From Flavobacteriaceae bacterium PS02337 (GTDB lineage: Bacteria; Bacteroidota; Bacteroidia; Flavobacteriales; Flavobacteriaceae), in the NCBI GenBank assembly GCA_029959285.1, contig JASCOE010000001.1, positions 248,001 through 312,000 of the forward strand: a DNA stretch of 64,000 nt, written 5' to 3'. The position numbers and the translations under genes are program-made. The notes under the pieces are model-generated. The model was not told the DNA's origin. It saw only the letters and a program-made list of their open reading frames with translations, and ran no database searches. Positions 1,871 to 62,831 of this stretch are shown here, one piece after another. Every line of letters starts with the position of its first letter. The first letter of the stretch is position 1.

Positions 1871-4800
1871 ATGAAGAAAATGAAAAGAATTATTTTTATT
1901 TTAATTATTTTTCTATCAGCCTTAGGTCATGCCCAAGTTACAGGCTCGGCAATGTCAGGAACTGTTAGATCAAACAAGGGAGAAGCGCTTCCAGGTGCAA
2001 CTGTAGAGGTTGTCCACAAACCTACTGGAACAAAATACTTTTCTACTACAGATTTTGACGGTGGATATGCTGTACAAGGTTTAAGACCAGGTGGACCTTA
2101 TAACGTAAAAGTAACATACATTGGTTACAAAACAACTGAAATTACTGATATTAACGTTGGTTTAGGTAATAACCTAACTGTAAACGTAAAAATTGACGAA
2201 GAATCAAATGCTTTACAAGAAGTTGTTGTTACAACAAAATCAAAAGGAAATTTTAACAAAGGAAGAACTGGTGCTTCACAACAGTTCTCAAACAGAGAAA
2301 TTACTGCAGTTCCTGTTACAGGATCTCGTTCTATAAACGCTGTTACAAAGTACAATGCTAATGCTGGTGCAAACGGAACTTTTGGTGGTCAAGATTCAAG
2401 ATTAAACAACTTTACAATTGACGGTTCTGTTTTCAACAACGGTTTCGGACTTGGAAGTGAGTCTCAAGCTGGAGGAAGAACAGGTTCTACTGCTATCTCT
2501 CTTGATGCAATTGAGCAATTACAAGTAAACATTGCTCCTTTTGACATTCGTCAATCTGGCTTCTTAGGATCAGGAATTAATGCTGTAACAAGAAGTGGAA
2601 CAAATGAAATCGAAGGATCTGTTTACAATTCTTTCAGAAGCAACAAATCAAGCTTTATTGGAACTCACGCAGGTGCAGTAGATATCACTCCAGGAAAATT
2701 TGACGAAAAAATTTGGGGAGCTCGTATCGGAGCACCAATCATCAAAGATAAATTATTCTTTTTTGGTAACTTCGAAACTATCGACAATGTAAGCCCTGCA
2801 ACAACATGGACATCTACTGGATCTCCTCAAGGTGGTGCACAAATTTCAGCTCCAACTTACACTGAAATGCAGACACTTTCTAATTACATGAGAGATAACT
2901 TCAATTATATTACTGGTCCTTGGGAAAATTACGATGCTGCAAAAACATCTAAAAAATTCTTAACAAGAATTGACTGGAATATTAATGACAATCACAAGCT
3001 TACAGCTCGTTACGTACACCACAATTCATCTTCTGATGAGTTAACTTCTAACTCAAACTCATTAGGTTTCGGAAACAGAAGAACAAGTGCTTTAGCAATG
3101 TCTTTCAAAAACAGTGGATACACAATTTTAGATAACACTAGATCTATCGTAGTTGAATTAAACAGTAAATTTAGCAACTCATGGTATAATAACTTCATTG
3201 CTGGTTACGATAAGCAAATTGAAGATAGAGGTTTACAAGGTGGTGGATTATTCCCAACTATTGATATCAAAAATGGTTCTGCTAACTACATTTCTGTTGG
3301 TTTAGACCCTTTTACACAAGGTAACAAACTTTCATATTCAACATTACACTTTACAGACAACTTAACTAAAACTATTGGAAAACATTCTATTGTTTTAGGA
3401 GCAAATTTTGAATATTTCAAATCAAGCAACTTATTCTTTTCTGGATCAAACGGAGTTTATGTATTTAATTCGTTAGCTGATTTTTATGCTGCTGCTGATC
3501 AATCAATAGCTAATGGTGGAGCTCCATCAAGCGCTACTACAACTTCTCCAGCACGTTTTCAATATAGATATTCAGCTTTGCCTGGTGGTGAAGAACCATT
3601 GCAAATTTTAAAATCTAATAAATTAGATTTATATGCACAGGATGAAATCAAATTAAGTGATAAATTTAAATTATCTGTTGGTCTTAGAGCATCTAGAGTT
3701 TGGTTCGCTGATACTGCTTTAGAAAACCCTACAGTTACTGCAATGACTTTTGCTAATGGCGAAAAGTTCAATACAGGTGAAATGCCAGATGCACAATACT
3801 TATTTGAACCAAGATTAGGATTCAATTTAGATTTAAACGGAGATGCTTCAACTATTGTTAGAGGGGGATCAGGAGTATTCACAGGAAGAGCTCCATCTGT
3901 ATACTTATCAAATCAAATTGGTAACAATGGTGTTCTTACAGGATTCGTTGATGTAAGTGGTGCTGCTTTAGCTGCTGGAGGTTACGGTTTTACACCAAGA
4001 CCAGCTGAGTATTTCACTCCATCAACTCCAACATTACCTTCAACTTTTGATTTAGCTTTTACAGATAAAAAATTCAAATACCCACAAGTTTGGAAAACAA
4101 CTATGGCAGTTGACCAAAAACTTCCATTTGGTTTTGTAGGTAGCGTAGAAGGTATTCTACAGAAAAACATTAATGCAATTAATTATTACAATGCTAACTT
4201 TGATGCGCCTGTTGGAACATTTGCTGGCACTGATAACAGACCTAGATACTCTCGTAATGATGCTGGAACAAGAGTTAATGATAACGTTTCAAACGGAATT
4301 GTTTTAACTAATTCTGACGAAGGATATTTTTATTCTACAACTTTTAAATTAGAATACCCATATCAAAATGGTCTTTGGGGATCATTCGCTTATACGCATT
4401 CTCAAGCTACTGATTTAATTTCTCCAGGATCTGTTGCTTCTGGTTCATGGACTGGTGCTAGATCTATAAATGGAAACAATGACTTACAAGTTTCTAATTC
4501 AAACAACAATACGCCTCACCGTTTAGTAGGAGTACTTGGATACAAAATTGAATACGGAAAAGGTTTAATTGGCGGTGCGACATCTATTAACTTAGGATAT
4601 ATTGGAGAAGTTGCAAGTCCTTTCACATACGCTTACAGCGGTGATATGAATGGAGATAGAGTAAATGGAAATGATTTACTTTACGTACCAAACAGCGCTA
4701 ATGAATTACGTTTTACTCCTCTTACTGTTTCAAGTACAGTTAATGGTGTAACAACAACTAAAACATACACAGAAGCTGAGCAAAGAACTGCATTTGATGC

Positions 4801-5197
4801 TTACATTGATCAAGACAAATATCTTCGCACAAGAAGAGGTCAATATGCTGAAAGAAACGGTGCTATCTTACCAATGTTACACAGATTAGATTTATCTGTT
4901 ACACAAGATTTAAACATTAACATTCGTGGTAAAAGAAACAGTTTCCAATTTAGAGCTGACATCTTGAACTTTACAAACATGTTAAACAGAGATTGGGGAG
5001 TTACACAAAGACCAACGAATGCAAACGTATTAGCATATAATACAACAAATGCTGCAAACGTTCCTTTCTACCAATTAGCAACTCAAACAGATGTAAACGG
5101 AAACAGATACTTGATTAAAGATACTTTCCAAAAAAATGCATCTACATTTGATGTTTGGCAAGCTCAATTTACAATCAGATATATTTTTGGTAAATAG
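1871..5197 (+). CDS. Oar-like TonB-dependent outer-membrane receptor
   Basis: A TonB-gated outer-membrane beta-barrel of 1108 residues. It has a signal peptide (residues 1-22), a carboxypeptidase-regulatory-like domain at about 28-110 (PGATVEVVHKPTGTKYFSTT), a plug domain at about 115-245 with an IDGSVFNN stretch, then a long barrel ending in an aromatic strand (FTIRYIFGK). The length and plug resemble the Oar family rather than SusC: there is no SusD partner. It is monocistronic, with a -7 box upstream and a strong terminator downstream. The substrate cannot be told from sequence. A second ATG three codons downstream (1880) is an alternative start. Confidence 0.88.
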   Translation: MKKMKRIIFILIIFLSALGHAQVTGSAMSGTVRSNKGEALPGATVEVVHKPTGTKYFSTTDFDGGYAVQGLRPGGPYNVKVTYIGYKTTEITDINVGLGNNLTVNVKIDEESNALQEVVVTTKSKGNFNKGRTGASQQFSNREITAVPVTGSRSINAVTKYNANAGANGTFGGQDSRLNNFTIDGSVFNNGFGLGSESQAGGRTGSTAISLDAIEQLQVNIAPFDIRQSGFLGSGINAVTRSGTNEIEGSVYNSFRSNKSSFIGTHAGAVDITPGKFDEKIWGARIGAPIIKDKLFFFGNFETIDNVSPATTWTSTGSPQGGAQISAPTYTEMQTLSNYMRDNFNYITGPWENYDAAKTSKKFLTRIDWNINDNHKLTARYVHHNSSSDELTSNSNSLGFGNRRTSALAMSFKNSGYTILDNTRSIVVELNSKFSNSWYNNFIAGYDKQIEDRGLQGGGLFPTIDIKNGSANYISVGLDPFTQGNKLSYSTLHFTDNLTKTIGKHSIVLGANFEYFKSSNLFFSGSNGVYVFNSLADFYAAADQSIANGGAPSSATTTSPARFQYRYSALPGGEEPLQILKSNKLDLYAQDEIKLSDKFKLSVGLRASRVWFADTALENPTVTAMTFANGEKFNTGEMPDAQYLFEPRLGFNLDLNGDASTIVRGGSGVFTGRAPSVYLSNQIGNNGVLTGFVDVSGAALAAGGYGFTPRPAEYFTPSTPTLPSTFDLAFTDKKFKYPQVWKTTMAVDQKLPFGFVGSVEGILQKNINAINYYNANFDAPVGTFAGTDNRPRYSRNDAGTRVNDNVSNGIVLTNSDEGYFYSTTFKLEYPYQNGLWGSFAYTHSQATDLISPGSVASGSWTGARSINGNNDLQVSNSNNNTPHRLVGVLGYKIEYGKGLIGGATSINLGYIGEVASPFTYAYSGDMNGDRVNGNDLLYVPNSANELRFTPLTVSSTVNGVTTTKTYTEAEQRTAFDAYIDQDKYLRTRRGQYAERNGAILPMLHRLDLSVTQDLNINIRGKRNSFQFRADILNFTNMLNRDWGVTQRPTNANVLAYNTTNAANVPFYQLATQTDVNGNRYLIKDTFQKNASTFDVWQAQFTIRYIFGK

Positions 5198-5231
5198 TCT
5201 AGTTTCTAAATTTAGAATCTAAATAAATAAT

Positions 5232-5270
5232 AAAAACGGCATTGACTTTTAAGTTTAATGCCGTTTTTTT
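5232..5270 (+). terminator. Terminator of the Oar-like receptor
   Basis: A 12-bp stem (AAAAACGGCATT and its complement) ends in eight T residues. The first ATG of the next reading frame (5258) falls inside this hairpin, which argues against that ATG as a start. Confidence 0.9.
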
Positions 5271-5284
5271 ATAGTCATTTTTGT

Positions 5285-5292
5285 TATATTTG
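5285..5292 (+). promoter_or_regulatory. -7 box of the small membrane protein gene
   Basis: TATATTTG matches the flavobacterial consensus TAnnTTTG, 22 bases before the ATG at 5315. It decides the start codon of that gene. Confidence 0.6.
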
Positions 5293-5314
5293 TTTCAAAC
5301 AAAAAACAAGGTTT

Positions 5315-5737
5315 ATGTATAATTTTCTACAAAAATTCCACTCTGGATGGGCATACTTAGCATTGCTTCTTTTACTTGTCGCAGTTGTTAATGCAATTAT
5401 CGGAGTAACATCAAAAAAAGAGTTTACAGCTAAAGATCGTAAAATTGTTTTATTTGCTTTAATTGGAACTCACACACAGTTATTAATCGGTTTGATATTA
5501 TATTTTGTTTCTCCACTTGGAAAAGCAGCTTTTGGACAAATGTCTAATGCAGAACTTCGATTAACATCATTAGAACACCCTCTAATTAATCTTATTGCAA
5601 TCGTCCTAATTACTATTGGATGGTCTAAACATAAAAAATTAATCAACAGCGAAGCTAAATTTAAAACCTTTGCTATATTTTACGGATTAGGATTATTGCT
5701 TATTTTAAGTAGAATTCCGTGGAACCTTTGGTTCTAG
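5315..5737 (+). CDS. Small four-helix membrane protein, cytochrome b-like
   Basis: A 140-residue integral membrane protein with four predicted hydrophobic helices, starting MYNFLQKFHSGWAYL. Histidines lie in or near helices (FHSGW, GTHTQ, LEHPL), which is why such flavobacterial proteins are sometimes called cytochrome b; haem binding is not demonstrated. The ATG at 5315 was chosen because the upstream in-frame ATG at 5258 lies in the previous terminator, while a -7 box TATATTTG at 5285-5292 precedes 5315 closely. A terminator follows at once. Function unknown. Confidence 0.7.
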   Translation: MYNFLQKFHSGWAYLALLLLLVAVVNAIIGVTSKKEFTAKDRKIVLFALIGTHTQLLIGLILYFVSPLGKAAFGQMSNAELRLTSLEHPLINLIAIVLITIGWSKHKKLINSEAKFKTFAIFYGLGLLLILSRIPWNLWF

Positions 5738-5750
5738 AAAATACCAATTA

Positions 5751-5777
5751 AAAGCCCTTTCATCAGGGCTTTTTTTA
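5751..5777 (+). terminator. Terminator after the small membrane protein gene
   Basis: Stem AAAGCCCT/AGGGCTTT with a 6-base loop, followed by T residues. Confidence 0.9.
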
Positions 5778-5829
5778 TCTCGGCATATTATTTGTACAAA
5801 CTCCCCCCAAGTCTGAAAAAAAATAACCC

Positions 5830-6321
5830 ATGAGAAATAAAAAAATTATTTTATTCGCCACAATTGCTTTCACTTTAATTAGTGGTTTTACCTATGTTAT
5901 AAGTCAAACCAAACCCGCAACAGACCCAAAAATTACTCAAGATACAGTAAAAAATGCAAAACCAAACATTATTGCATTACCAGTAGATTCAGTTTTTACA
6001 GACAAAGGATTAAAACTTAGACCATACAAAAAAAACGCACATGCCTCCTACTATGCAGATCGTTTTAATGGAAAAAGAACTGCTAACGGAAGCAGATTCA
6101 ACAACAACAGTTATACTGCGGCGCACAAAAAACTTCCTTTTGGAACTCGAGTAAAAGTAACAAACGAAGCCAATGGCAAATTTGTAATCGTAAAAATTAC
6201 CGACCGTGGTCCATTTGTAAAAACCCGTGAAATAGATTTATCAAAAAGAGCTTTTATGGACATCACCAAAAATAAAGGCGCTGGCGCAATGAAAGTAACA
6301 ATCGAAACTATAGTAGAATAA
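5830..6321 (+). CDS. RlpA-family septal ring lytic transglycosylase-like protein
   Basis: A 163-residue exported protein. An N-terminal signal anchor (residues 1-25) is followed by a short linker and a double-psi beta-barrel at about residues 73-160. The RlpA hallmarks are visible: ASYYADRFNGKRTANGSRF, the LPFGTRVKVTN segment and ITDRGPFVKTREIDLSKRA. RlpA proteins act in the periplasm on peptidoglycan at the septum; the family includes active lytic transglycosylases and inactive relatives. There is no SPOR domain here, so septal targeting is uncertain. Monocistronic, with a terminator at the stop codon. Confidence 0.88.
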   Translation: MRNKKIILFATIAFTLISGFTYVISQTKPATDPKITQDTVKNAKPNIIALPVDSVFTDKGLKLRPYKKNAHASYYADRFNGKRTANGSRFNNNSYTAAHKKLPFGTRVKVTNEANGKFVIVKITDRGPFVKTREIDLSKRAFMDITKNKGAGAMKVTIETIVE

Positions 6322-52708: not shown

Positions 52709-53283
52709 AATAAGAATTGATTAAGTTTAAGTTATAGTTAGTAATTTCTACCCTAAGAGAAATCTGGAAAACTTCCCAAGCAGGTCATGCCAAAAATGAG
52801 GGCCTGAATCTCATTTCCAACATTTAGTACTTGCAGACTATTAGCAGCTATTTTTAGCATCAAACCGATTAAAAATCAATTTCTAAAAAAACAATTGTGG
52901 TAAGTTTAAGTTAAGTTGTAGCTTTGCCTTTTTTACTTATAGTCAATTTGAATTTATCTTATGGTGAATTTGACTACAAGTGTAAAACAAATTTTCTATA
53001 TTAACAAAATATTAGGGTTAATTTTTTTCTATTCTAATAAATCCTATTTCATTTTTGTGAATGCTGTAAAATTTGAATTAGATTTGAAATAAAAAGTAGA
53101 GAAAAATCAGCGTTTTATGAAATTGACAATCAACCGTTTAAGAATCCTTTTTAAAAAAGAGAATTTTTAAACGTTTTTTAAACGACTGATTATCAAAATC
53201 TTGTTTTGTTAAAAAAAATATAAGGCTTTTAAGAAGGCTCCTAATCATTTTATTTATTTAATTTGTCAAAATTTATCTCGAGT
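52709..53283. promoter_or_regulatory. Divergent control region between susC and the Nudix regulators
   Basis: About 575 bases without a gene. Seen: TAAGTTTAAGTTA twice (near 52728 and 52901); a plus-strand promoter-like TTG-N21-TAGCTTTG ending near 52926; an inverted pair TAGTCAA (52941-52947) and TTGACTA (52971-52977); and 17-base arms at 53125-53141 and 53178-53194 with three mismatches, enclosing further TTAAACG units. No strict -7 box was found for susC on the minus strand. Confidence 0.5.
53125..53194. promoter_or_regulatory. Inverted repeat upstream of the first Nudix regulator
   Basis: GACAATCAACCGTTTAA and TTAAACGACTGATTATC pair at 14 of 17 positions, 90-160 bases before the ATG at 53284. 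Within it CGTTTAA occurs once and TTAAACG twice. It may be an operator of the adjacent regulators or an mRNA hairpin. Confidence 0.4.
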
Positions 53284-54000
53284 ATGATTGAAAATGTAGA
53301 TGACAAACCCGTACCAAAAAACGAGCACAGCGCCATGAATGCGATCACGATTGATTGCGTCATTTTTGGTTTTGATCAGGGCAGTCTTGAGGTACTTTTA
53401 GTGCAGCACGGAGAAGGTATCAGCAAAGGAAAATGGGGTCTTCCGGGAGGATGGATTTACAAGAAAGAAAGTACAGATGCTGCTGCACATCGCTTGTTGA
53501 ATGAACTTACTGGTCTTGACAATATTTATCTGGAACAGCTAAAAGCATTTGGAGATCCTGATCGTTTTCCGCTTCGACGCGTTATTACAATTGGATATTA
53601 TGCTTTAGTAAAAAGAGAAGATTATAATATTAAAGCTGGTTTTACGGCTTCTGATGCAAAGTGGTATAAAATCAACGAAATTCCGAATTTGATTTATGAT
53701 CATAACGAAATTTTAGATTACAGTATAAAACATCTTAGAAGCAAAGTTCGTCAGACACCAATTGGTTTTAACTTATTGCCAGAAAAATTCACTTTATTAC
53801 AATTGATGCAGTTGTACGAAGAAATTTTAGGAATCGAAATGGACAAACCGAATTTTAGAAGAAAAATTCTTCACATGAAATTGTTGGTTGCTTTAGACGA
53901 AAAACAGCAAGATGTTTCGCATAGAGCCGCTCAATTGTACAAATTTGATCCAGAAATTTACACGAAATTAACCGAAAAAGGATTCAATTTTGAATTTTGA
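53284..54000 (+). CDS. Nudix-winged-helix regulator 1 of the PUL
   Basis: A 238-residue NrtR-superfamily regulator: Nudix domain (about 18-150) and C-terminal winged helix (SHRAAQLYKFDPEIY). The Nudix box is degenerate: the usual REUxEE reads RLLNEL (residues 70-75), so two of three glutamates are lost and catalysis is unlikely. The Bacteroides arabinose regulator AraR (BT0354) is a known sugar-responsive member of this superfamily. Divergent from susC, it probably controls the PUL in answer to a released sugar. ATG 53284 was chosen over an upstream in-frame TTG at 53263. Confidence 0.85.
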   Translation: MIENVDDKPVPKNEHSAMNAITIDCVIFGFDQGSLEVLLVQHGEGISKGKWGLPGGWIYKKESTDAAAHRLLNELTGLDNIYLEQLKAFGDPDRFPLRRVITIGYYALVKREDYNIKAGFTASDAKWYKINEIPNLIYDHNEILDYSIKHLRSKVRQTPIGFNLLPEKFTLLQLMQLYEEILGIEMDKPNFRRKILHMKLLVALDEKQQDVSHRAAQLYKFDPEIYTKLTEKGFNFEF

Positions 54001-54059: not shown

Positions 54060-54761
54060 TTGACAGAAACAACTACTCAACATAACAAACCTGCCGTAGA
54101 CGGAATCACGATTGACTGTGTTTTCTTCGGATTTAATAAAGAAAGTCTCGAAGTTCTTTTGGTTCAGCACGCTCAAGGCGAAAGTAAAGGTAAATGGGGA
54201 CTTCTTGGCGGATGGCTTCAATTGCATGAAAGTGCCGATGATGCCGCACAGCGAATTCTGCAGGAACTTACGGGTCTTGAAGATATTTATTTAGAGCAGT
54301 TAAAAGCATTTACAAATCCAAAACGTGTTTTAGAAAGACGAGTTGTAACTATTGGTTATTATACTTTGGTGAATCGCGAAGATTATAATATCAAGGCGAG
54401 TTTAAAAGTCATTGAAGCAAAATGGTATAAAATAAACGAAATTCCAGATTTGATTTTTGATCATAACGAAATTCTAGATTTCAGTTTATTGCAATTGAGA
54501 AACCGTGTTCGTCAAGCGCCAATTGGTTTTAATTTATTGCCTGAAAAATTTACTTTATTGCAATTAATGCATTTGTATGAAGAAATCTTAGGAATCGAAT
54601 TGGACAAATCTAACTTTAGAAGAAAAGTGCTTCATATGAAATTGCTTCAAGCATTAGACGAAAAACAAAAAGACGTTTCGCACAGAGCGGCCAAACTTTA
54701 CAAATTTGATGCTGATATCTACAAAAAATTAACAGAAAAAGGATTCAATTTTGAATTTTAA
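54060..54761 (+). CDS. Nudix-winged-helix regulator 2 of the PUL, tandem paralogue
   Basis: A 233-residue close paralogue of the preceding gene, nearly identical in the C-terminal DNA-binding half (PIGFNLLPEKFTLLQLM through KLTEKGFNFEF). The Nudix box again lacks the glutamates (RILQEL, residues 65-70) and the loop reads LLGGW where gene 1 has LPGGW. No ATG fits: the frame is closed by a stop at 54021 and the only sensible start is TTG at 54060, 59 bases after gene 1. It arose by tandem duplication and may form heterodimers with gene 1 or sense a second ligand. Confidence 0.82.
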   Translation: MTETTTQHNKPAVDGITIDCVFFGFNKESLEVLLVQHAQGESKGKWGLLGGWLQLHESADDAAQRILQELTGLEDIYLEQLKAFTNPKRVLERRVVTIGYYTLVNREDYNIKASLKVIEAKWYKINEIPDLIFDHNEILDFSLLQLRNRVRQAPIGFNLLPEKFTLLQLMHLYEEILGIELDKSNFRRKVLHMKLLQALDEKQKDVSHRAAKLYKFDADIYKKLTEKGFNFEF

Positions 54762-54924: not shown

Positions 54925-56721
54925 ATGAAGAAGATACGTAACTTTTGCATTATTGCACACATTGACCACGGTAAAAGTACATTGGCGGACAGATTATTAG
55001 GAGCAACACAAACTGTTACAGCTCGTGAAGAAAAAGCACAATTGCTTGACAACATGGATCTGGAGCGTGAGCGTGGAATTACCATTAAAAGTCATGCCAT
55101 TCAGATGGAATACACTTATAAAGGTGAAGAATACATTCTGAATTTAATTGATACTCCTGGTCACGTAGATTTTTCGTATGAAGTTTCAAGATCAATTGCT
55201 GCCTGCGAAGGTGCTTTATTGATTGTTGATGCTGCTCAAAGTATTCAGGCACAAACAATTTCAAACTTATATTTAGCTCTTGAAAACGACTTGGAAATTA
55301 TTCCAGTTTTAAATAAAGTCGATTTACCAAGTGCAAATCCAGAAGAAGTTAGCGACGATATTATCGATTTATTAGGATGTAAATTAGAAGATATTATTCA
55401 TGCTTCTGGAAAAACTGGTTTTGGTGTTGAAAATATTTTAGCTGCCATTATCGAAAAAATTCCTGCTCCAAAAGGAAACCCAGAAGAACCATTACAAGCT
55501 TTGATTTTTGACTCGGTTTACAATCCGTTTCGTGGAATTGAAGTAATTTTTAGAGTTGTAAATGGTGAAATCAAAAAAGGTCAAAAAATTAAATTCATGG
55601 CTACTGGCAATGAATATTTTGCTGACGAAATTGGAACTTTAAAATTAAATCAAGTTCCTAAAAATGTAATTTCTAGCGGAGACGTTGGTTATTTGATTTC
55701 GGGTATTAAAGAAGCGAAAGAAGTAAAAGTTGGAGATACGCTAACTGATGCAAAAACACCGACAACCAATATGATTACTGGTTTTGAAGATGTAAAACCA
55801 ATGGTATTTGCCGGAATTTATCCAGTTGACACTGAAGATTATGAAGATTTGCGTTCTTCTATGGAAAAACTGCAATTGAATGATGCTTCGTTAGTTTTTA
55901 CACCTGAAAGTTCTGCGGCGTTAGGATTTGGTTTCCGTTGCGGGTTCTTAGGAATGCTTCACATGGAAATTATTCAGGAACGTTTAGAGCGTGAGTTCGA
56001 TATGACTGTAATTACTACAGTTCCTAACGTTTCGTATTTGGCTTACACCAAAAAAGATCCTGAAACTGCATTTGTGGTAAACAATCCTTCTGATTTGCCT
56101 GAACCTTCTCGTTTAGATAGAGTTGAAGAACCTTTCATTAAAGCAACAATTATTACAAAAGCTGATTTCGTAGGAAACGTAATGAGTTTGTGTATTGAAA
56201 AACGTGGACAAATTACTAATCAAACATATTTAACAACAGAACGTGTTGAATTGAACTTCGACATGCCTTTGGCGGAAATTGTATTCGATTTTTATGATCG
56301 TTTAAAAACAGTTTCTAAAGGTTATGCTTCTTTTGATTACTCTCCAATCGGAATGAGAACTTCAAAATTAGTTAAACTTGACGTTCTTTTAAATGCACAA
56401 ACTGTTGATGCGCTTTCTGCATTAATTCACGAAGACAACGCTTACAATATCGGTAAAAAAATGACCGAGAAATTACGCGAATTGATTCCAAGACAACAAT
56501 TTGACATTCCGATTCAAGCTGCAATTGGAGCAAAAATTATCGCTCGTGAAACCATTAAAGCACTTCGTAAAGACGTTACCGCAAAATGTTACGGTGGAGA
56601 TATTTCGCGTAAGCGTAAATTGCTGGAAAAACAGAAAAAAGGTAAAAAACGTATGCGTCAAGTAGGAAACGTTGAGATTCCGCAAGAAGCATTTATGGCT
56701 GTTTTGAAATTGAATGACTAA
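54925..56721 (+). CDS. lepA: Elongation factor 4 (LepA)
   Basis: Ribosome-bound translational GTPase that acts on stalled or misassembled ribosomes. The 598-residue length is normal. Seen: G1 AHIDHGKST (residues 9-17), the RERGITIKS switch, G3 DTPGHVDF, G4 NKVDLP, and the LepA-specific C-terminal domain ending [20 protein letters not shown] with [19 protein letters not shown]. The last 128 bases (56593-56720) recur at 60213-60340 on the other side of the next gene. Confidence 0.97.
56593..56720 (+). repeat. Left copy of the lepA 3'-end direct repeat
   Basis: The final 128 bases of lepA, starting exactly at a glycine codon, match 60213-60340 at 124 of 128 positions. It is part of the intact gene. 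Confidence 0.95.
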
Positions 56722-56760
56722 AGTTTAGTATTAAGAATTTGGTACTAACTATTAAGATAG

Positions 56761-56956: not shown

Positions 56957-59900
56957 ATGAAAGGAACTTTACTTAATTACAAATTATTTACGGTAGTAAC
57001 AATTTTAATATTTTCACCTTTATTTTCTAAAGAAAAAATGAAGTCTCATCTTTTTTCATTAGAAAGCAATGCTAAAAAAGACTTTTTTTTGTTTTTTCAG
57101 GCAACAGACAAAGAAGCTCCTACTGCACCTACTGAATTGAAAGTGACTGAAAATACTGGCACTAGTCTAACATTATCTTGGAAAGCATCTACAGATAATG
57201 TAGGTGTTACTTCTTATGATATCTACGCAGGAAGTTTCTTTGCAGGTAATTCTAAATCAACAAGTTTCACTATTAAAGGATTAGCCTCAAATACTTGGTA
57301 TAGTTTTAAGGTAGTAGCGAAAGATGCTGCTGGAAATGTTTCAGCTGAAACTGGAATCGGAACTAAAACACTAGATATAACACCACCAACTCGTCCAACA
57401 GCATTAACTTCTACGCAGGTTACTCGTACAAGCGTAAGTTTATCTTGGACAGGATCAACTGATAATGAACGTGTAGTAGCTTACGATATTTTTCAAGGAG
57501 GAAATTTACTAGTAGGAACCTCAACAAATACAAGATTTACAGTAACTGGACTTGTTTCCGATAATACATACGCATTTTCTGTAAGAGCAAGAGATGCTGA
57601 CGGAAATTATTCAGAAAAAAGCATTGCCTTAATCGTCGAAACTTTAGATGGAAAACCTCCAACTGTGCCTACGGGGATTTCTGCTGACGAAATTACTTCA
57701 ACTTCTATTAAATTATCATGGAATCCATCAATAGACAACAATAGTGTTACAGGATATCAAGTTTATCGTTATGGTGTTTTATTAGGAACAACAACCTCTA
57801 CAAGTTTCATTGCATCTAATTTAATTCCCAATAATGCTTATTCCTTTACAATAAAAGCAAAAGATGCTAACTCAAATTTCTCTGCTGAAAGTGAGATTTT
57901 CACTGTCACTACTATTCCAACACCTCCTGATTATTGCGTGTCAAAAGGATTTAGCACTGTTTTAGGCATTACTCTATCAAGAGTACAGTTAGGAACAATT
58001 GATAGTAAACAAAATCCAACACAATTAAGTACAGAACTAAAAAAAGGGGAAACATACGCCATTACTGTCAGTGGAAGCGAATATTTAACTGGCCAAACAC
58101 AATTTGGCCAACGATATGCTGTTTGGATTGATTATAATGGAGATTTAGATTTTTATGATTCTGGAGAACGCGTTTGGAATAATGAAGTAACAAATCTTAC
58201 TCCTGTCATTGGTACATTTACAGTTCCTGAAACTGCAATTATCGGCGCTACAAGAATAAGAATAACAAGTCAAGGTGACGCTGTTGGTATTCCTTCTCCT
58301 TGTGGAGATTATACCGGAACATACAATTATGGCAGAACAGAAGATTATACTGTTAACATAGTGAATTCTACTAAAGATAGCAATGCATCAACTGCTCCAT
58401 TGAATCTTACAGCATCAAAAACGACTTGGACAACAACAAATTTATCTTGGTCACCTCCCGCAAATACACCAAATCTTATTGGTTACGAAATTTATCAGGA
58501 ATCTACTTTAATTGGAAGTTCTGAAACAAACAGCTTTTCTGTAACTGGCTTAAAACAAGTAACAGGTTATGTCTTTACAGTAAAAGCAAAAAAAGCAGAC
58601 GGAACATTATCTGCAGCAAGTAATCCTTTATTAGTAAAAACTATAAGAGCTCCGCGACCAGATAGACCAACAAATTTACAGGCCTTAAAGGTTACTTCAA
58701 CAAAAGCCGATCTCGCGTGGACTCCTTCACAAAACACTTCAGGGCTTGATCTAACTTATTACATTTATGGATCATATTATCGCAACAATAATACCCTACT
58801 AGGAAAAACAAAAAATCCCTTTATTACTATTTTGTTCTCAAACTCCTACTATGATGATGTTAATGTAGTAGCAATTGACGAAATGGGTAATGACTCTGGC
58901 TCGTCCAACAAAATTTCTATTAAAGCCGCACAAGCTAATCCAGCTCCTTTACCTCCAACTGATCTTACTGCTACCGAGATTACAACCTCATCAGTAAAAT
59001 TAACTTGGACAGCTTCAAAAACTGATCCCCCAGTTAGCTCTTATTACATTTATAAGAATTCCATCTTAATTGGAAAAGTAAATAATGGAGAAACTACTTT
59101 CATAGTTACGGACTTAGATGCCAATACAGAGTATAACTTTATAGTATATACCAATGTGGAAGATTCTTACCAATCTTCAACCGAGAAAATACTTACTAAA
59201 ACCGCTTCTCTACCAGGTTATTGCAAACCAGAAATATCAAAAACAAAGAGAGATCAAATCATTTCTTTTGATTTAGGTTCATTAGTTCGCAGTGCACCTG
59301 CTAATGGATACACAGATGATTCATCCTATATTACATCGTTTACTCCTGGGCAAGAAAGTACCATTATCATGGCTATAGACAGGTATCCAAATAATTCCCC
59401 TAAAAACATGTCAAACGGTCTAGCTGTTTGGATTGATTTTAATGGAGATAAAGATTTTGATGATGCAGGAGAGTTAGTTTGGAGCAATTTATACAAAAAC
59501 CCTTCATCTTTAGATTTTACAGCAATTGCAACATTCATGATCCCTTCAACAGCAATTACAGGAAAAACTGGACTGAGAATTGCAATGAAGGAAAATGGAA
59601 TTCCAGCATCATGTGAACAATTTACTTACGGAGAGGTTAGAGATTTTACAGTTGACATCAAGAAACCAATTATAGAATCTGAAGCCCCAAGCATACCAAC
59701 GAATTTAACCGTATCAAACATTACTAAAACATCAGCAATTTTATCATGGAATGAATCAACAGACAACATAGCAGTTACAGGTTATGATATTTACCAAGGA
59801 AACACTTTAATTGGATCTACAATTTTAAATACGTACAACGTTACTGGATTAAATACAAATACGACTTATTCTTTTACTGTAAAAGCTAAAGATTATGCTA

Positions 59901-60199
59901 AAAACATTTCAGATTCAAGCGATCCTATTTCCGTAACGACGGCTAATCTTTCTGTAGAAGATTATGAATCGGAAACGAATCAATATATTTTATATCCAAA
60001 TCCGGTATCTCAAACATTATTTGTACAACAGCCAAATAACACTTCAACTTCATATAAAATAATTAATTTAAATGGACAGATTGTACTTCAAGGAAGTTTA
60101 AATAACGGCATCGAAGTAAGTAATCTAAGTAGTGGAGTCTATATTATTGAGTTAAAAAATGACGAAACAACAATTACCAAAAAGTTTATAAAAATATAA
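56957..60199 (+). CDS. Fibronectin-III/GEVED secreted protein with T9SS C-terminal domain
   Basis: A 1080-residue surface or secreted protein. After a signal-like N-terminus come three FN3 domains (about 55-325; APTELKVTENTGTSLTLSW), a GEVED domain (about 325-470, VWIDYNGDLDFYDSGE), three more FN3 (about 478-750), a second GEVED (about 753-900, VWIDFNGDKDFDDAGE), one FN3 (about 908-998) and a type IX secretion sorting domain (about 1010-1080, YILYPNPVSQTLFV to KKFIKI). The repeated FN3 units suggest adhesion or a scaffold; no enzyme domain is seen. It lies between two copies of the lepA 3' end, so it appears inserted behind lepA. Confidence 0.9.
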   Translation: MKGTLLNYKLFTVVTILIFSPLFSKEKMKSHLFSLESNAKKDFFLFFQATDKEAPTAPTELKVTENTGTSLTLSWKASTDNVGVTSYDIYAGSFFAGNSKSTSFTIKGLASNTWYSFKVVAKDAAGNVSAETGIGTKTLDITPPTRPTALTSTQVTRTSVSLSWTGSTDNERVVAYDIFQGGNLLVGTSTNTRFTVTGLVSDNTYAFSVRARDADGNYSEKSIALIVETLDGKPPTVPTGISADEITSTSIKLSWNPSIDNNSVTGYQVYRYGVLLGTTTSTSFIASNLIPNNAYSFTIKAKDANSNFSAESEIFTVTTIPTPPDYCVSKGFSTVLGITLSRVQLGTIDSKQNPTQLSTELKKGETYAITVSGSEYLTGQTQFGQRYAVWIDYNGDLDFYDSGERVWNNEVTNLTPVIGTFTVPETAIIGATRIRITSQGDAVGIPSPCGDYTGTYNYGRTEDYTVNIVNSTKDSNASTAPLNLTASKTTWTTTNLSWSPPANTPNLIGYEIYQESTLIGSSETNSFSVTGLKQVTGYVFTVKAKKADGTLSAASNPLLVKTIRAPRPDRPTNLQALKVTSTKADLAWTPSQNTSGLDLTYYIYGSYYRNNNTLLGKTKNPFITILFSNSYYDDVNVVAIDEMGNDSGSSNKISIKAAQANPAPLPPTDLTATEITTSSVKLTWTASKTDPPVSSYYIYKNSILIGKVNNGETTFIVTDLDANTEYNFIVYTNVEDSYQSSTEKILTKTASLPGYCKPEISKTKRDQIISFDLGSLVRSAPANGYTDDSSYITSFTPGQESTIIMAIDRYPNNSPKNMSNGLAVWIDFNGDKDFDDAGELVWSNLYKNPSSLDFTAIATFMIPSTAITGKTGLRIAMKENGIPASCEQFTYGEVRDFTVDIKKPIIESEAPSIPTNLTVSNITKTSAILSWNESTDNIAVTGYDIYQGNTLIGSTILNTYNVTGLNTNTTYSFTVKAKDYAKNISDSSDPISVTTANLSVEDYESETNQYILYPNPVSQTLFVQQPNNTSTSYKIINLNGQIVLQGSLNNGIEVSNLSSGVYIIELKNDETTITKKFIKI

Positions 60200-60212
60200 A
60201 AATCTATAAATT

Positions 60213-60341
60213 GGTGGAGATATTTCGCGTAAGCGTAAACTTCTTGAAAAACAGAAAAAAGGTAAAAAACGTATGCGTCAGGTAGGAAACGTTGAGATTC
60301 CGCAAGAAGCATTTATGGCTGTTTTGAAATTGAATGACTAG
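60213..60341 (+). pseudogene. Duplicated 3'-terminal fragment of lepA
   Basis: Encodes the last 42 LepA residues (from [14 protein letters not shown]) in an otherwise headless copy ending in TAG where lepA has TAA. The four differences from the intact gene (at the positions matching 56620, 56622, 56625, 56661) are all synonymous: Leu TTG/CTT, Leu CTG/CTT, Gln CAA/CAG. It therefore descended from a functional lepA. It has no start of its own and starts 13 bases after the FN3 gene stop. Confidence 0.92.
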
Positions 60342-60385
60342 ATTTTTTCTTAGAGAATAGAAGAAAGAAACAAGAATATAAACTA

Positions 60386-60503: not shown

Positions 60504-60701
60504 TTAGGAAATAAGTGTTCCACAAATTCCTAATCCAATAATCAGATATAATGCACCTATAATAAAACAAACTTTTGCTCCATTAGGATGGTTTTTCTTC
60601 ACTGCAAAACCAATGATTGTCATTAAAATTGGCGGCACGACCATAATCGCTACAAAAAATGCTATCAATCCACCTAAATTACCTACTTCTAGCGCTGTCA
60701 T
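60504..60701 (-). CDS. Small two-helix membrane protein of the radical SAM operon
   Basis: A 65-residue protein with two hydrophobic helices (about 10-33 and 43-63) joined by a basic, hydrophilic turn (KKNHPNGAKV). No family is recognised. It starts 5 bases after the radical SAM gene stop, so it is almost certainly cotranslated in the same operon and may anchor or assist the other two products. Confidence 0.7.
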   Translation of the reverse strand: MTALEVGNLGGLIAFFVAIMVVPPILMTIIGFAVKKNHPNGAKVCFIIGALYLIIGLGICGTLIS

Positions 60702-60706
60702 ATTCT

Positions 60707-62098
60707 TTAAATATTAGTTCTTAATTCTTCTAATCTTTTTACTTTATCATCTCTATAAAACAAATTCATGGTTTCAAAAGGAATTATTTTATTATCCTTA
60801 TTGACAATATGTACGCATGATTTTTTTATTGCTCTCACATCAAAATTATAGGCATCAATAAATTGCATTATAATAATTCTAAACAGATTGTCATATCCTA
60901 ATTCTGGCGCATCAATATTAGGAAGACAGCATAATATCGATTTCAAGTTTTCTTGTGCTACTTCAACAGAATTTCCTGTACTAAACAAATCTATCATTTT
61001 ACCTCTCAGCACTTCATCCTGCTCATAGATAATAGTGTTTTTACTATTATCCAATAAATCATTTGGATTAATATATCGTGTTAACGGAAAAACTTCATCT
61101 CCTAATTTCAACGCATAACCCATTACTAAAGCGTCAGGATTACAGGGAACAGGAAGTAAATCATCTGAATTAAAAACAGTTGTTTGCTCCAGGATTTTTC
61201 TTCTTACTTCTGTTAATGTCATCCGATCGGTTTCTAAGTTAAAGTTCTCCAATCTACCCGCTATTTGAGTTGGCTGAAATGTAACGCCTCGAACGCATTT
61301 TTGCTTTAGTGCAAACTCAATAATTTTACCTATTTCATGATCGTTTAATCCTTTTTGAAGCGTAACAACCAAAGTGGTCGATAAATTAACTTCATTTAAA
61401 TTTTCTAAAGCTTGTTTTCGTATTTCGCTTAAATCGGCTCCGCGCAACTCCTGCAATACACTATCTTCAAAGGAATCAAACTGAAGATAGATTTCAAAAT
61501 CTGGAGAATAGCTTTTTAACCTCTGAACAAATTCTTTGTCTTTTGCAATTTTGATTCCATTTGTATTTAGCATTAAATGCTTTATAGGAATCGATTTCGC
61601 ATAATCCAAAATTTCAAAAAATTCAGGATGTATGGTTGGTTCTCCTCCACTAATCTGTACTACATCTGGTTCTTTCTCGTTTTTAACAACCGTATCGAGC
61701 ATTGCTTTTATTTCTTCAAGAGTTCTGTGTCTACCATAAATAGGCGATGAACCCGCATAACAAGTCGGACATGTCAAATTGCAACGATCTGTAACCTCAA
61801 CAACTGTCAAGCATGAATGCTGTTCGTGATCTGGACATAAACCACAATCGTACGGACAGCCGTAATGCGTTTTCGTATTAAAAGTGTACGGCATCTCAGA
61901 TGGTTTATTGTAGTTTCGGATATTCTTGTAATACTGAATATCGTCAGCAATTAAAACCTTAGAACTTCCGTGTTCTGGACATCTTTTAAGCATGTAAACA
62001 TTCTCGTCTTCAAAAACAATTTTAGCATCAATTCGCTTTAAGCACTCTGGGCAAAGGCTTAATGTAAAGTCATAATAAGTATATTTTCTAACTGGCAT
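60707..62098 (-). CDS. Radical SAM protein of the MJ0619/tetraether synthase (Tes) type
   Basis: A 463-residue protein. The order of cysteine motifs is that of MJ0619/Tes: CPEC (16-19), CPEH (40-43), GCPYDCGLCPDH (80-91), the radical SAM triad CNLTCPTC (106, 110, 113), then QISGGEPTIHPEF and LMLNTNG. Later cysteines (ILCCLPN) may bind a further cluster. Archaeal Tes joins lipid tails by carbon-carbon coupling; bacterial relatives make membrane-spanning lipids. Its start overlaps the end of the Lgt-like gene by 11 bases, supporting a lipid substrate. The reaction in this organism is unknown. Confidence 0.85.
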   Translation of the reverse strand: MPVRKYTYYDFTLSLCPECLKRIDAKIVFEDENVYMLKRCPEHGSSKVLIADDIQYYKNIRNYNKPSEMPYTFNTKTHYGCPYDCGLCPDHEQHSCLTVVEVTDRCNLTCPTCYAGSSPIYGRHRTLEEIKAMLDTVVKNEKEPDVVQISGGEPTIHPEFFEILDYAKSIPIKHLMLNTNGIKIAKDKEFVQRLKSYSPDFEIYLQFDSFEDSVLQELRGADLSEIRKQALENLNEVNLSTTLVVTLQKGLNDHEIGKIIEFALKQKCVRGVTFQPTQIAGRLENFNLETDRMTLTEVRRKILEQTTVFNSDDLLPVPCNPDALVMGYALKLGDEVFPLTRYINPNDLLDNSKNTIIYEQDEVLRGKMIDLFSTGNSVEVAQENLKSILCCLPNIDAPELGYDNLFRIIIMQFIDAYNFDVRAIKKSCVHIVNKDNKIIPFETMNLFYRDDKVKRLEELRTNI

Positions 62099-62831
62099 TT
62101 TTTACAAATAAATTTAAAATTGTTTTGTTATAATAGAGCAGACAAATCAAACATAAAATCTGAATCGAGCTTATTCCAAAAATCAGGAAATAATTGGGTT
62201 TCAGAAATTCTACAAAAAAGCGAAATCCGAAATAGGCAATCATAAAATATTGAAATATAAGTCCGTTTTTGATATTTCTGGCTTTTAATTTCTTCAAAGT
62301 AAAAAACAAAATAATCAGAAAAATTAATTCGTATAATGCAATCGGATGCCTCATAATATTATCACCAAGATTCATGCCCATAAAAAAGGTTGTTTGTTTT
62401 CCATATGTAAACTCATTGGTTCCAGATAAAAAACAGCCAACTCTTCCAATAAAAATTCCTAAAATGATCGGAAAAGTAAACAAATCACCTGATGATTCTT
62501 TTTCGCCAATAATTTTCTTAGCAATTTCAACTCCTAAAAGTCCGCCAAACAATCCTCCCATAATTGTTTTTGCATTGAAGAGTTCTAAAATTGATATTCC
62601 ATCAAGATGAAAAACAGGATTTTCTAGAAATCCCATAATTCTAGAGCCTAAAAAAGCTCCAATTGCCGCTCCCAATATAATGGATAATCTATTGGTTGAA
62701 ACAATTGTATCATTTGTTCTTTTTCTCAAAAAAATATAATATCGATATCCCAAGAAAAAAGCTAGATATTCTAAGACTAAATGGACATTAATTTCATACC
62801 CAAAAATAACTGGCTCAAAAGGTAACTTCAT
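62088..62831 (-). CDS. Lgt-like (prolipoprotein diacylglyceryl transferase family) membrane protein
   Basis: A 247-residue protein with about seven hydrophobic helices. It keeps several Lgt landmarks: GRVGCFLSG (R130), RHPIALYE (161-168) and RFFVEFLKPNY (204-214). But the signature asparagine is cysteine (C133), the signature glutamate position reads threonine (T138), and the HGG segment reads KTIMGGLFGG. It is thus probably a paralogue with another acceptor, not the essential Lgt. It is the first gene of the operon and overlaps the radical SAM gene by 11 bases. Confidence 0.8.
   Translation of the reverse strand: MKLPFEPVIFGYEINVHLVLEYLAFFLGYRYYIFLRKRTNDTIVSTNRLSIILGAAIGAFLGSRIMGFLENPVFHLDGISILELFNAKTIMGGLFGGLLGVEIAKKIIGEKESSGDLFTFPIILGIFIGRVGCFLSGTNEFTYGKQTTFFMGMNLGDNIMRHPIALYELIFLIILFFTLKKLKARNIKNGLIFQYFMIAYFGFRFFVEFLKPNYFLIFGISSIQILCLICLLYYNKTILNLFVKNAS

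Follow-up and report, generated by a model that had tools for sequence, protein, structure and literature searches.

What does a flavobacterium make with an operon that joins a relative of the diacylglyceryl transferase Lgt to a radical S-adenosylmethionine (SAM) protein related to the lipid-coupling enzyme Tes? This operon lies in a stretch of 64,000 nucleotides, hereafter the window, from Flavobacteriaceae bacterium PS02337 (GenBank assembly GCA_029959285.1, contig JASCOE010000001.1, positions 248,001–312,000; genome G000 in our sample). As described in the initial annotation, it consists of three coupled genes; they lie on the minus strand. They encode, in this order, a 247-residue Lgt-like membrane protein assigned to the LGT family by Pfam (62088–62831), a 463-residue radical SAM protein that is kin to Tes and TrsS and forms its own clade (60707–62098), and a 65-residue two-helix membrane protein, our candidate acceptor substrate (60504–60701). 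The first two genes overlap by 11 bases (62088–62098), and 5 bases lie between the stop codon of the radical SAM gene and the start codon of the third. We propose, with a probability of about 0.42, that the three genes constitute a single module for lipidating, and then modifying, small membrane hairpin proteins. The third gene, whose importance the initial annotation overlooked, is a core part of this set, and its sole invariant residue is a C-terminal cysteine.

A conserved gene set

We looked for both large genes in 395 Bacteroidota genomes, with a threshold of E ≤ 1e-60 for the former radical SAM search and a profile for the Lgt-like protein; as far as the two resulting lists show, they share the same genome handles. 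The radical SAM search gave 31 genomes. The Lgt-like type is clear in 33, scoring 264 bits or more in 32 and 153 bits in G096; the next best match reaches 126 bits, and we take the matches at this score and below to be canonical Lgt. The radical SAM protein is present in 32 of these 33 carriers (all 31 called at E ≤ 1e-60, plus G096 by profile), and no genome among the 395 has it without the Lgt-like type at the thresholds used. Lack of joint conservation of the pair, named beforehand as an observation that would speak against a common function, was thus tested and is contradicted both by these genomes and by the linked loci described below. In G034 and G272 both genes are kept on separate contigs; their co-occurrence therefore outlasts the loss of linkage. 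The Lgt-like gene of G017 (locus L175) is solitary, with no Cys-tailed small protein in its stretch, and its product is altered at H17 and K105, both invariant in the 94 type A sequences defined below. It is perhaps a relic.

Carriers are patchily distributed, in 15 of 170 genera, and the window's own genus comprises 10 carriers, G000 included, versus 14 listed non-carriers. In the radical SAM tree, a copy from a Persicobacter plasmid (L005) nests among Flavobacteriaceae sequences, and two copies from one genus (L123 and L124) group with a copy from another family (L125). These positions suggest that the gene set has moved by horizontal transfer.

To these genomes we added 80 further named loci, the best 80 of at least 566 relatives in a contig scan. 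Environmental carriers of the operon include Flavobacterium tyrosinilyticum (L038) and Winogradskyella flava (L048). Both genes could be placed in 102 loci. They are co-oriented in all of them, and the Lgt-like gene lies upstream of the radical SAM gene in 99, where the two overlap in 65 cases and are otherwise separated by 0–60 bases (7 loci), 61–400 bases (21 loci), or more than 400 bases (6 loci). Among the 14 largest clusters of neighboring genes, only the two large genes themselves recur beyond three deep-branch loci, and the rest reflect local synteny in Flavobacteriaceae.

Phyla other than Bacteroidota were sampled through a plasmid collection, where three actinobacterial records contain the gene set. 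On two of them, plasmids of Mycobacterium branderi and Mycobacterium avium, four genes stand in a row: the Lgt-like gene, a pair of genes for small membrane proteins, and the radical SAM gene. The third, from Nonomuraea, shows a Cys-tailed reading frame together with both large genes. Their radical SAM proteins are 28–30% identical to that of the window and make up, with the form found in G096, which is 66% identical to that of M. branderi, a type that we named B. The clade of the window is type A. A third form, type A2 (L117–L119), shows about 40% identity, and here the order of the large genes is reversed, with the radical SAM gene preceding the Lgt-like gene. In a tree of 31 radical SAM sequences, types A and A2 join with a support of 89/79, and a long branch sets type B apart; the tree therefore leaves a single origin of the whole set undemonstrated. 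The small proteins of A2 (L117 and L118) and of type B share one BLAST cluster, which favors a common origin.

In L119, the interval that separates the two large genes (positions 4784–5858) contains a DUF4395 gene and a gene for an ICMT-like membrane methyltransferase. By Pfam, a DUF4395 gene also adjoins the Lgt-like gene in L117, and a look-alike was recognized by eye in L118. Trs-like radical SAM genes paired with a methyltransferase gene occur at L136, L137, L140, and L142, on a Mycolicibacterium plasmid and on haloarchaeal plasmids. Genes annotated as CcdA and protein disulfide oxidoreductase neighbor the pair in L136, and peroxiredoxin/redoxin and DUF547 genes neighbor it in L137 and L140. 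No CcdA, disulfide oxidoreductase, peroxiredoxin/redoxin, or DUF547 gene lies beside the pair in L142, where the match is split in two.

Two enzymes at a distance from named families

The Lgt-like protein matches the Pfam LGT model PF01790 with 79.6 bits (cut-off 24.9) and scores 51.3 bits with the lgt equivalog model TIGR00544, under its cut-off of 118.9 bits. The single A2 and type B sequences scored with the latter, at 80.4 and 89.7 bits, respectively, also fall below it. We counted residues in 102 Lgt-like sequences, comprising 94 of type A, 3 of A2, 4 of type B, and that of G017. In E. coli Lgt, the phospholipid-binding center was described as R143 and R239 together with E202, Y235, E243, and the signature motif (Mao et al., PMC4728403). 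The equivalents of R143, E202, and R239 are present in all 94 type A sequences, and that of E243 is Glu in 90 and Asp in 4. The arginine pair, R130 and R204 in the numbering of the window protein, is also complete in the A2 (3/3) and type B (4/4) sequences. The signature itself is changed. Asn146 (motif GRxGN) is Asn in all eight canonical Lgt compared, and the replacement by Cys133 noted in the initial annotation (GRVGCF; codon at 62433–62435, minus strand) extends over the whole clade, Cys being found in 102 of 102 sequences. A second reported change, from Glu to Thr138, hinges on the alignment: the region of E151 is rearranged, and an acidic residue stands at position 140 in all 94 type A sequences (88 Glu, 6 Asp), where types A2 and B have a gap.

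H103 of E. coli Lgt was proposed to act on the peptide side (Mao et al., PMC4728403). No Lgt-like sequence (0/102) has His in the corresponding HGGL region. We nevertheless dropped its loss as a diagnostic mark, as two or three of the eight canonical Lgt likewise are without it: the aligned residue is Tyr or Trp in the Lgt of Rubrobacter, Latilactobacillus, and Streptomyces, and the Latilactobacillus case hinges on the alignment, a pattern scan detecting an HGG motif in that protein. The tree of the family, which had been put forward as a check, separates the Lgt-like sequences from the eight canonical Lgt with a branch support of 100/99. Beside the Lgt-like gene, the genome of the window encodes three canonical Lgt (L001, L002, and L003), each scoring at least 200 bits with the Pfam model. 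The protein thus resembles Lgt by the family profile and by R143, E202, and R239, with E243 as Glu or Asp, and differs from it by its score under the equivalog cut-off, by the exchange of Asn for Cys, and by its association with the radical SAM gene, seen in 32 of 33 genomes.

Pfam assigns the radical SAM protein a radical SAM domain and an HMPTM zinc ribbon. In the PDB it matches MJ0619/Tes (7tol) at E 6.4e-74, with 37% identity in the aligned parts. Among named families, the best is TrsS (NF045646), matched over nearly the full length with 340.4 bits, followed by Tes (NF045702) with 304.4 bits. The equivalog cut-offs are 490 and 450 bits, respectively, and we rejected the assignment of the protein to either family. 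Among the best 25 families listed, maturases of the SPASM type and of ribosomally synthesized and post-translationally modified peptides (RiPPs) reach 52.6 bits at most.

The full cysteine layout of MJ0619/Tes, initially attributed to this protein, is found in three of its parts and not in the fourth. The rubredoxin-like site C-X2-C-X20-C-X2-H has the same spacing as in the description of Tes (PMC9433317), with C16, C19, and C40 in 98 of 98 type A sequences and H43 in 97. The ligands of the N-terminal [4Fe-4S] cluster, C81, C85, and C88, together with H91 and H94, are likewise present in all 98, and the radical SAM cluster is kept in the window protein (C106, C110, and C113). By contrast, at the C-terminal cluster the CC...PFC of Tes, whose role as ligands we inferred from the alignment, becomes SC...PFE in the clade of the window, so that two of three inferred cysteines are replaced (S427 in 96, C428 in 97, and E442 in 95 of the 98 type A sequences). 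Three further cysteines, C319, C390, and C391, are each found in all 98 and could, with C428, hold a cluster in another way, as judged from their conservation. The reverse is seen in type B, where the N-terminal cluster ligands are gone and CC...PFC is kept. In Tes, a sulfur of an [Fe4S4] cluster, the C-terminal one according to the authors, was reported to bond the alkyl intermediate during C–C coupling (PMC9433317). Hand-mapping in the numbering of that study gave identical counterparts for the SAM-site residues Y195, D199, R210, Q268, and R275, whereas Tyr459 is replaced by Ile, F106 by Tyr, and S271 by Gln.

The tree does not bear out the tetraether-synthase-type assignment either. MJ0619, entered as parts of its chain in an analysis that gave long-branch warnings, falls outside the clade of the window and beside methyltransferase-linked Trs-like proteins of haloarchaea and M. 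vanbaalenii (support 91/75, a branch that is not starred). The enzyme is therefore like Tes/GDGT-MAS (MJ0619) in its rubredoxin site and in the ligands of its N-terminal and radical SAM clusters, and unlike it in having SC...PFE with the conserved C319 and C390-C391. As for TrsS, the Trs-like relatives L136, L137, and L140 are also under its 490-bit cut-off where scored; they pair with a methyltransferase and, unlike the clade of the window, have no Lgt-like gene or Cys-tailed open reading frame (ORF) in their stretch.

A small membrane protein ending in cysteine

No family scored above a cut-off for the 65-residue protein in scans with the Pfam and equivalog profiles, nor did any for the relatives scanned. 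Its Cys60 (codon at 60522–60524, minus strand) stands five residues from the C-terminus. We searched for adjacent small ORFs on the same strand that encode a C-terminal Cys after a hydrophobic stretch, the Cys being required by construction. This search covered 101 loci with both large genes in the stretch (78 from the contig scan, 19 genome stretches including that of the window, and 4 records of the plasmid collection). At least one such ORF was found in 97 of them. In total, 143 Cys-tailed small ORFs lie beside the genes versus 5 on the opposite strand nearby; elsewhere, on both strands of 1166 kb, we counted 41. By eye, a Cys tail is also visible at three of the remaining four loci (L139, L141, and L176); the fourth, L132, is at a contig edge and belongs to a genome (G212) with three profile matches on another contig. 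Four more loci were kept outside the 101: L067 and L109, where the Lgt-like match is in pieces and Cys-tailed small ORFs are present, and L116 and L120, where the Lgt-like gene is elsewhere and only L120 has a Cys-tailed ORF. The identical search beside three methyltransferase-linked Trs-like genes that have no Lgt-like neighbor in the stretch (L136, L137, and L140) yielded no Cys-tailed ORF.

Eight strays, one DUF4395 gene and seven ORFs unlike the small protein by eye or by cluster, were removed from the 143, leaving 135 ORFs in 97 loci. Each of these loci has one to three diverged small membrane proteins that share little but the Cys ending the last helix. They form 11 BLAST clusters, of which we took six as real and five as strays. 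The residue at position −2 to the Cys is Gly, Ser, or Ala in 132 of the 135 ORFs and that at −4 in 129, and the Cys is at most 12 residues from the C-terminus in 133. As the ORF search demands the Cys, we also gathered homologs of the window protein by BLAST alone: it is present in 114 of 115 distinct homologs, whose median identity is 46%. Cys60 is the sole invariant column in an alignment of 24 small proteins. In a profile search of 12 genomes, the small protein was detected in G000 and G212 and not in G017. The same search revealed no convincing small protein in eight genomes of the window's genus that are devoid of the operon, seven giving no match and G206 a weak one inside a 305-residue frame.

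Of the 143 ORFs, 138 encode a second hydrophobic stretch. The mean charge is +3.9 in the loop between the two, −1.0 at the N-terminus, and 0.0 in the C-terminal tail, the loop being highest in 136 of 143. From this positive loop, both ends of the small protein are predicted to lie outside, and Cys60 should be at the outer face of the membrane.

Proposed lipidation of a hairpin protein and its alternatives

We propose the following pathway. The 65-residue protein would insert with both ends outside the cytoplasmic membrane, placing Cys60 at the outward end of its second helix, the position of a lipobox Cys while its signal peptide is still in the membrane, with few residues after it. Despite its changed signature (Asn to Cys), the Lgt-like enzyme retains the residues with which Lgt activates phospholipid. 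It would move a diacylglyceryl group from a phospholipid onto this Cys, forming an S-diacylglyceryl thioether bond, and the Tes-related radical SAM enzyme would then work on a hydrophobic tail, either that of the lipid itself or that of the lipidated protein. The acceptor role of the small protein, the bond, and the action of the radical SAM enzyme on lipid are all inferred. The computed support consists of the co-occurrence of the genes, their order and coupling, the near-invariant Cys, the N-out/C-out charge pattern, and the residues retained and lost in the enzymes. Multiplied and diverged gene copies are typical of substrates, and the one to three small copies per locus look like substrates.

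Several observations weigh against this proposal. The Cys motif is no lipobox, and a C-terminal helix bears the Cys. The exchange of the signature Asn for Cys133 could point to another reaction. Since Cys60 is predicted outside and the radical SAM enzyme presumably resides in the cytosol, the two could meet only if lipid tails reach the mid-membrane or if the enzyme acts prior to insertion. In G017, the Lgt-like gene occurs with no radical SAM match at E ≤ 1e-10. For G034, which encodes both enzymes, no small protein was found nearby, and its two weak profile matches lie inside longer frames. One of the 115 homologs, at L096, is devoid of the Cys, and additional adjacent hydrophobic ORFs without a Cys tail exist (e.g., at L064, L089, L105, and L111), where another copy has it. 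The tally of 97 in 101 loci presupposes the Cys, whereas that of 114 in 115 is unbiased but confined to homologs of the window protein. With a stricter Gly-x-Cys pattern, an adjacent ORF was found in 94 of 108 radical SAM loci, 11 being missed besides the three Trs-like ones. Finally, 78 of the 101 loci come from the contig scan of close relatives and are not independent.

Could the two enzymes instead make a free lipid? They might produce an unusual species, for example tail-coupled or glycerol-modified, with the small protein as a lipid-holding accessory whose Cys is loaded transiently. The likeness of the radical SAM protein to Tes, which acts on lipid tails, fits such a pathway, as do the density in Tes read as phosphatidic acid (PMC9433317), the binding of phospholipid by Lgt (PMC4728403), and the proposal that bacterial Tes homologs are possible makers of membrane-spanning lipids (Zeng et al., PMC8941075). 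However, the clade of the window is under the Tes cut-off and has lost two of three inferred cysteines of the C-terminal cluster, and a free lipid alone leaves the invariant C-terminal Cys and the multiplied, diverged copies unexplained. We consider this pathway unlikely, if the best placed of the alternatives. The initial annotation had suggested either a lipid modification or a lipid-to-protein transfer. This remains the likeliest theme, shorn of the Tes identity, which the cut-off, the C-terminal cysteines, and the tree do not support; the invariant C-terminal Cys favors transfer to a protein over a free membrane-spanning lipid.

Ranking just behind is a maturation of the small protein itself, as a RiPP-like precursor altered by the radical SAM enzyme, for example at or near its C-terminal Cys, and then anchored or lipidated by the Lgt-like enzyme. 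Diverged small copies with one invariant Cys would fit such precursors, and the RiPP of the dyb cluster was described as entering the lipoprotein pathway, with an MNIO enzyme akin to ChrH of Chryseobacterium (PMC12636315, preprint). This reading is weakened by the best named kin, which are TrsS and Tes and not the SPASM maturases (about 52 bits at most), and by the 14 largest neighbor clusters, among which no additional large gene (for instance, one for an exporter or a protease) recurs in deep-branch loci.

We regard as more doubtful still a thiol or redox system, in which the Lgt-like protein would be a scaffold, Cys133 and the Cys of the small protein would bind metal or exchange disulfides, and sulfur or cofactor chemistry would be the task of the radical SAM enzyme, as may hold for its TrsS kin. 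Both cysteines are conserved, three Trs-like relatives, each with a methyltransferase, adjoin CcdA and disulfide oxidoreductase or peroxiredoxin/redoxin genes, and DUF4395 adjoins the Lgt-like gene as described above for L117, L119, and, by eye, L118. Yet the Lgt-like protein retains the Arg pair and the acidic residues of Lgt, and in type A loci no such gene recurs beside it among the 14 largest neighbor clusters. Equally doubtful is a membrane-stapled lipoprotein: the hairpin Cys would receive diacylglycerol from the Lgt-like enzyme in the outer leaflet, one of its tails would be joined by the radical SAM enzyme to a tail of another lipid or of a second lipidated hairpin, and the protein would thereby become a covalent part of a membrane-spanning lipid in ordinary bacteria. 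A plain Lgt paralog that happens to adjoin an unrelated radical SAM gene, conceivable since the three canonical Lgt of this genome show paralogs to be common, was rejected as very improbable in view of the co-occurrence in 32 of 33 genomes, the recurrence in a second phylum, the single gene order in 99 of 102 loci, and the 100/99 branch dividing the Lgt-like sequences from canonical Lgt.

No description of the gene set was found in the literature searched; subscription literature was mostly uncovered, so one may have escaped. The nearest published ideas in the sources consulted are the lipidation of the MYXO-CTERM Cys (PMC11980579) and a RiPP of the lipoprotein pathway (PMC12636315, preprint). 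In the myxosortase system, as presented in the former, a near-C-terminal Cys is proposed to be lipidated by an Lgt-like enzyme; there a helix and an Arg-rich cytoplasmic end follow the Cys and a protease takes part, whereas here the Cys closes the in-to-out helix of a tiny hairpin. We considered a sorting signal of the MYXO-CTERM type and set it aside, since the Cys follows the last helix and lies within 12 residues of the end in 133 of 135 ORFs. Mss, which joins fatty-acid tails in bacteria and whose models were reported to resemble Tes (PMC13274423, PMC11868695), offers tail coupling in bacteria as a likeness and was compared by description. Proteins like the radical SAM enzyme of the window may already be counted, their neighbors aside, among the 456 bacterial Tes homologs retrieved by Zeng et al. 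(PMC8941075). What is known, then, is the enzyme superfamilies; what is new is subfamilies under the cut-off of every named family and a predicted acceptor with the reversed arrangement.

If lipidation of the hairpin proteins is correct, diacylglyceryl attachment by the Lgt family would extend past N-terminal lipoboxes to the C-terminal Cys of tiny hairpins, and a sister enzyme of Lgt would be tied to radical SAM kin of a lipid-tail joiner. The target is concrete, with one Cys, one 65-residue protein, and one operon, and it bears on the role of bacterial Tes relatives.

Elsewhere in the window, a direct repeat of 134 bases with 96% identity (56593–56726 and 60213–60346) indicates that the 3′ end of lepA (54925–56721) is duplicated beyond a gene of 1080 codons (56957–60199). 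The product of this gene has fn3 and GEVED domains and a Por secretion tail, and the arrangement looks as if the gene had been put into the tail of lepA. Two tandem paralogs (53263–54000 and 54060–54761) each encode a Nudix domain and an NrtR-type winged helix.

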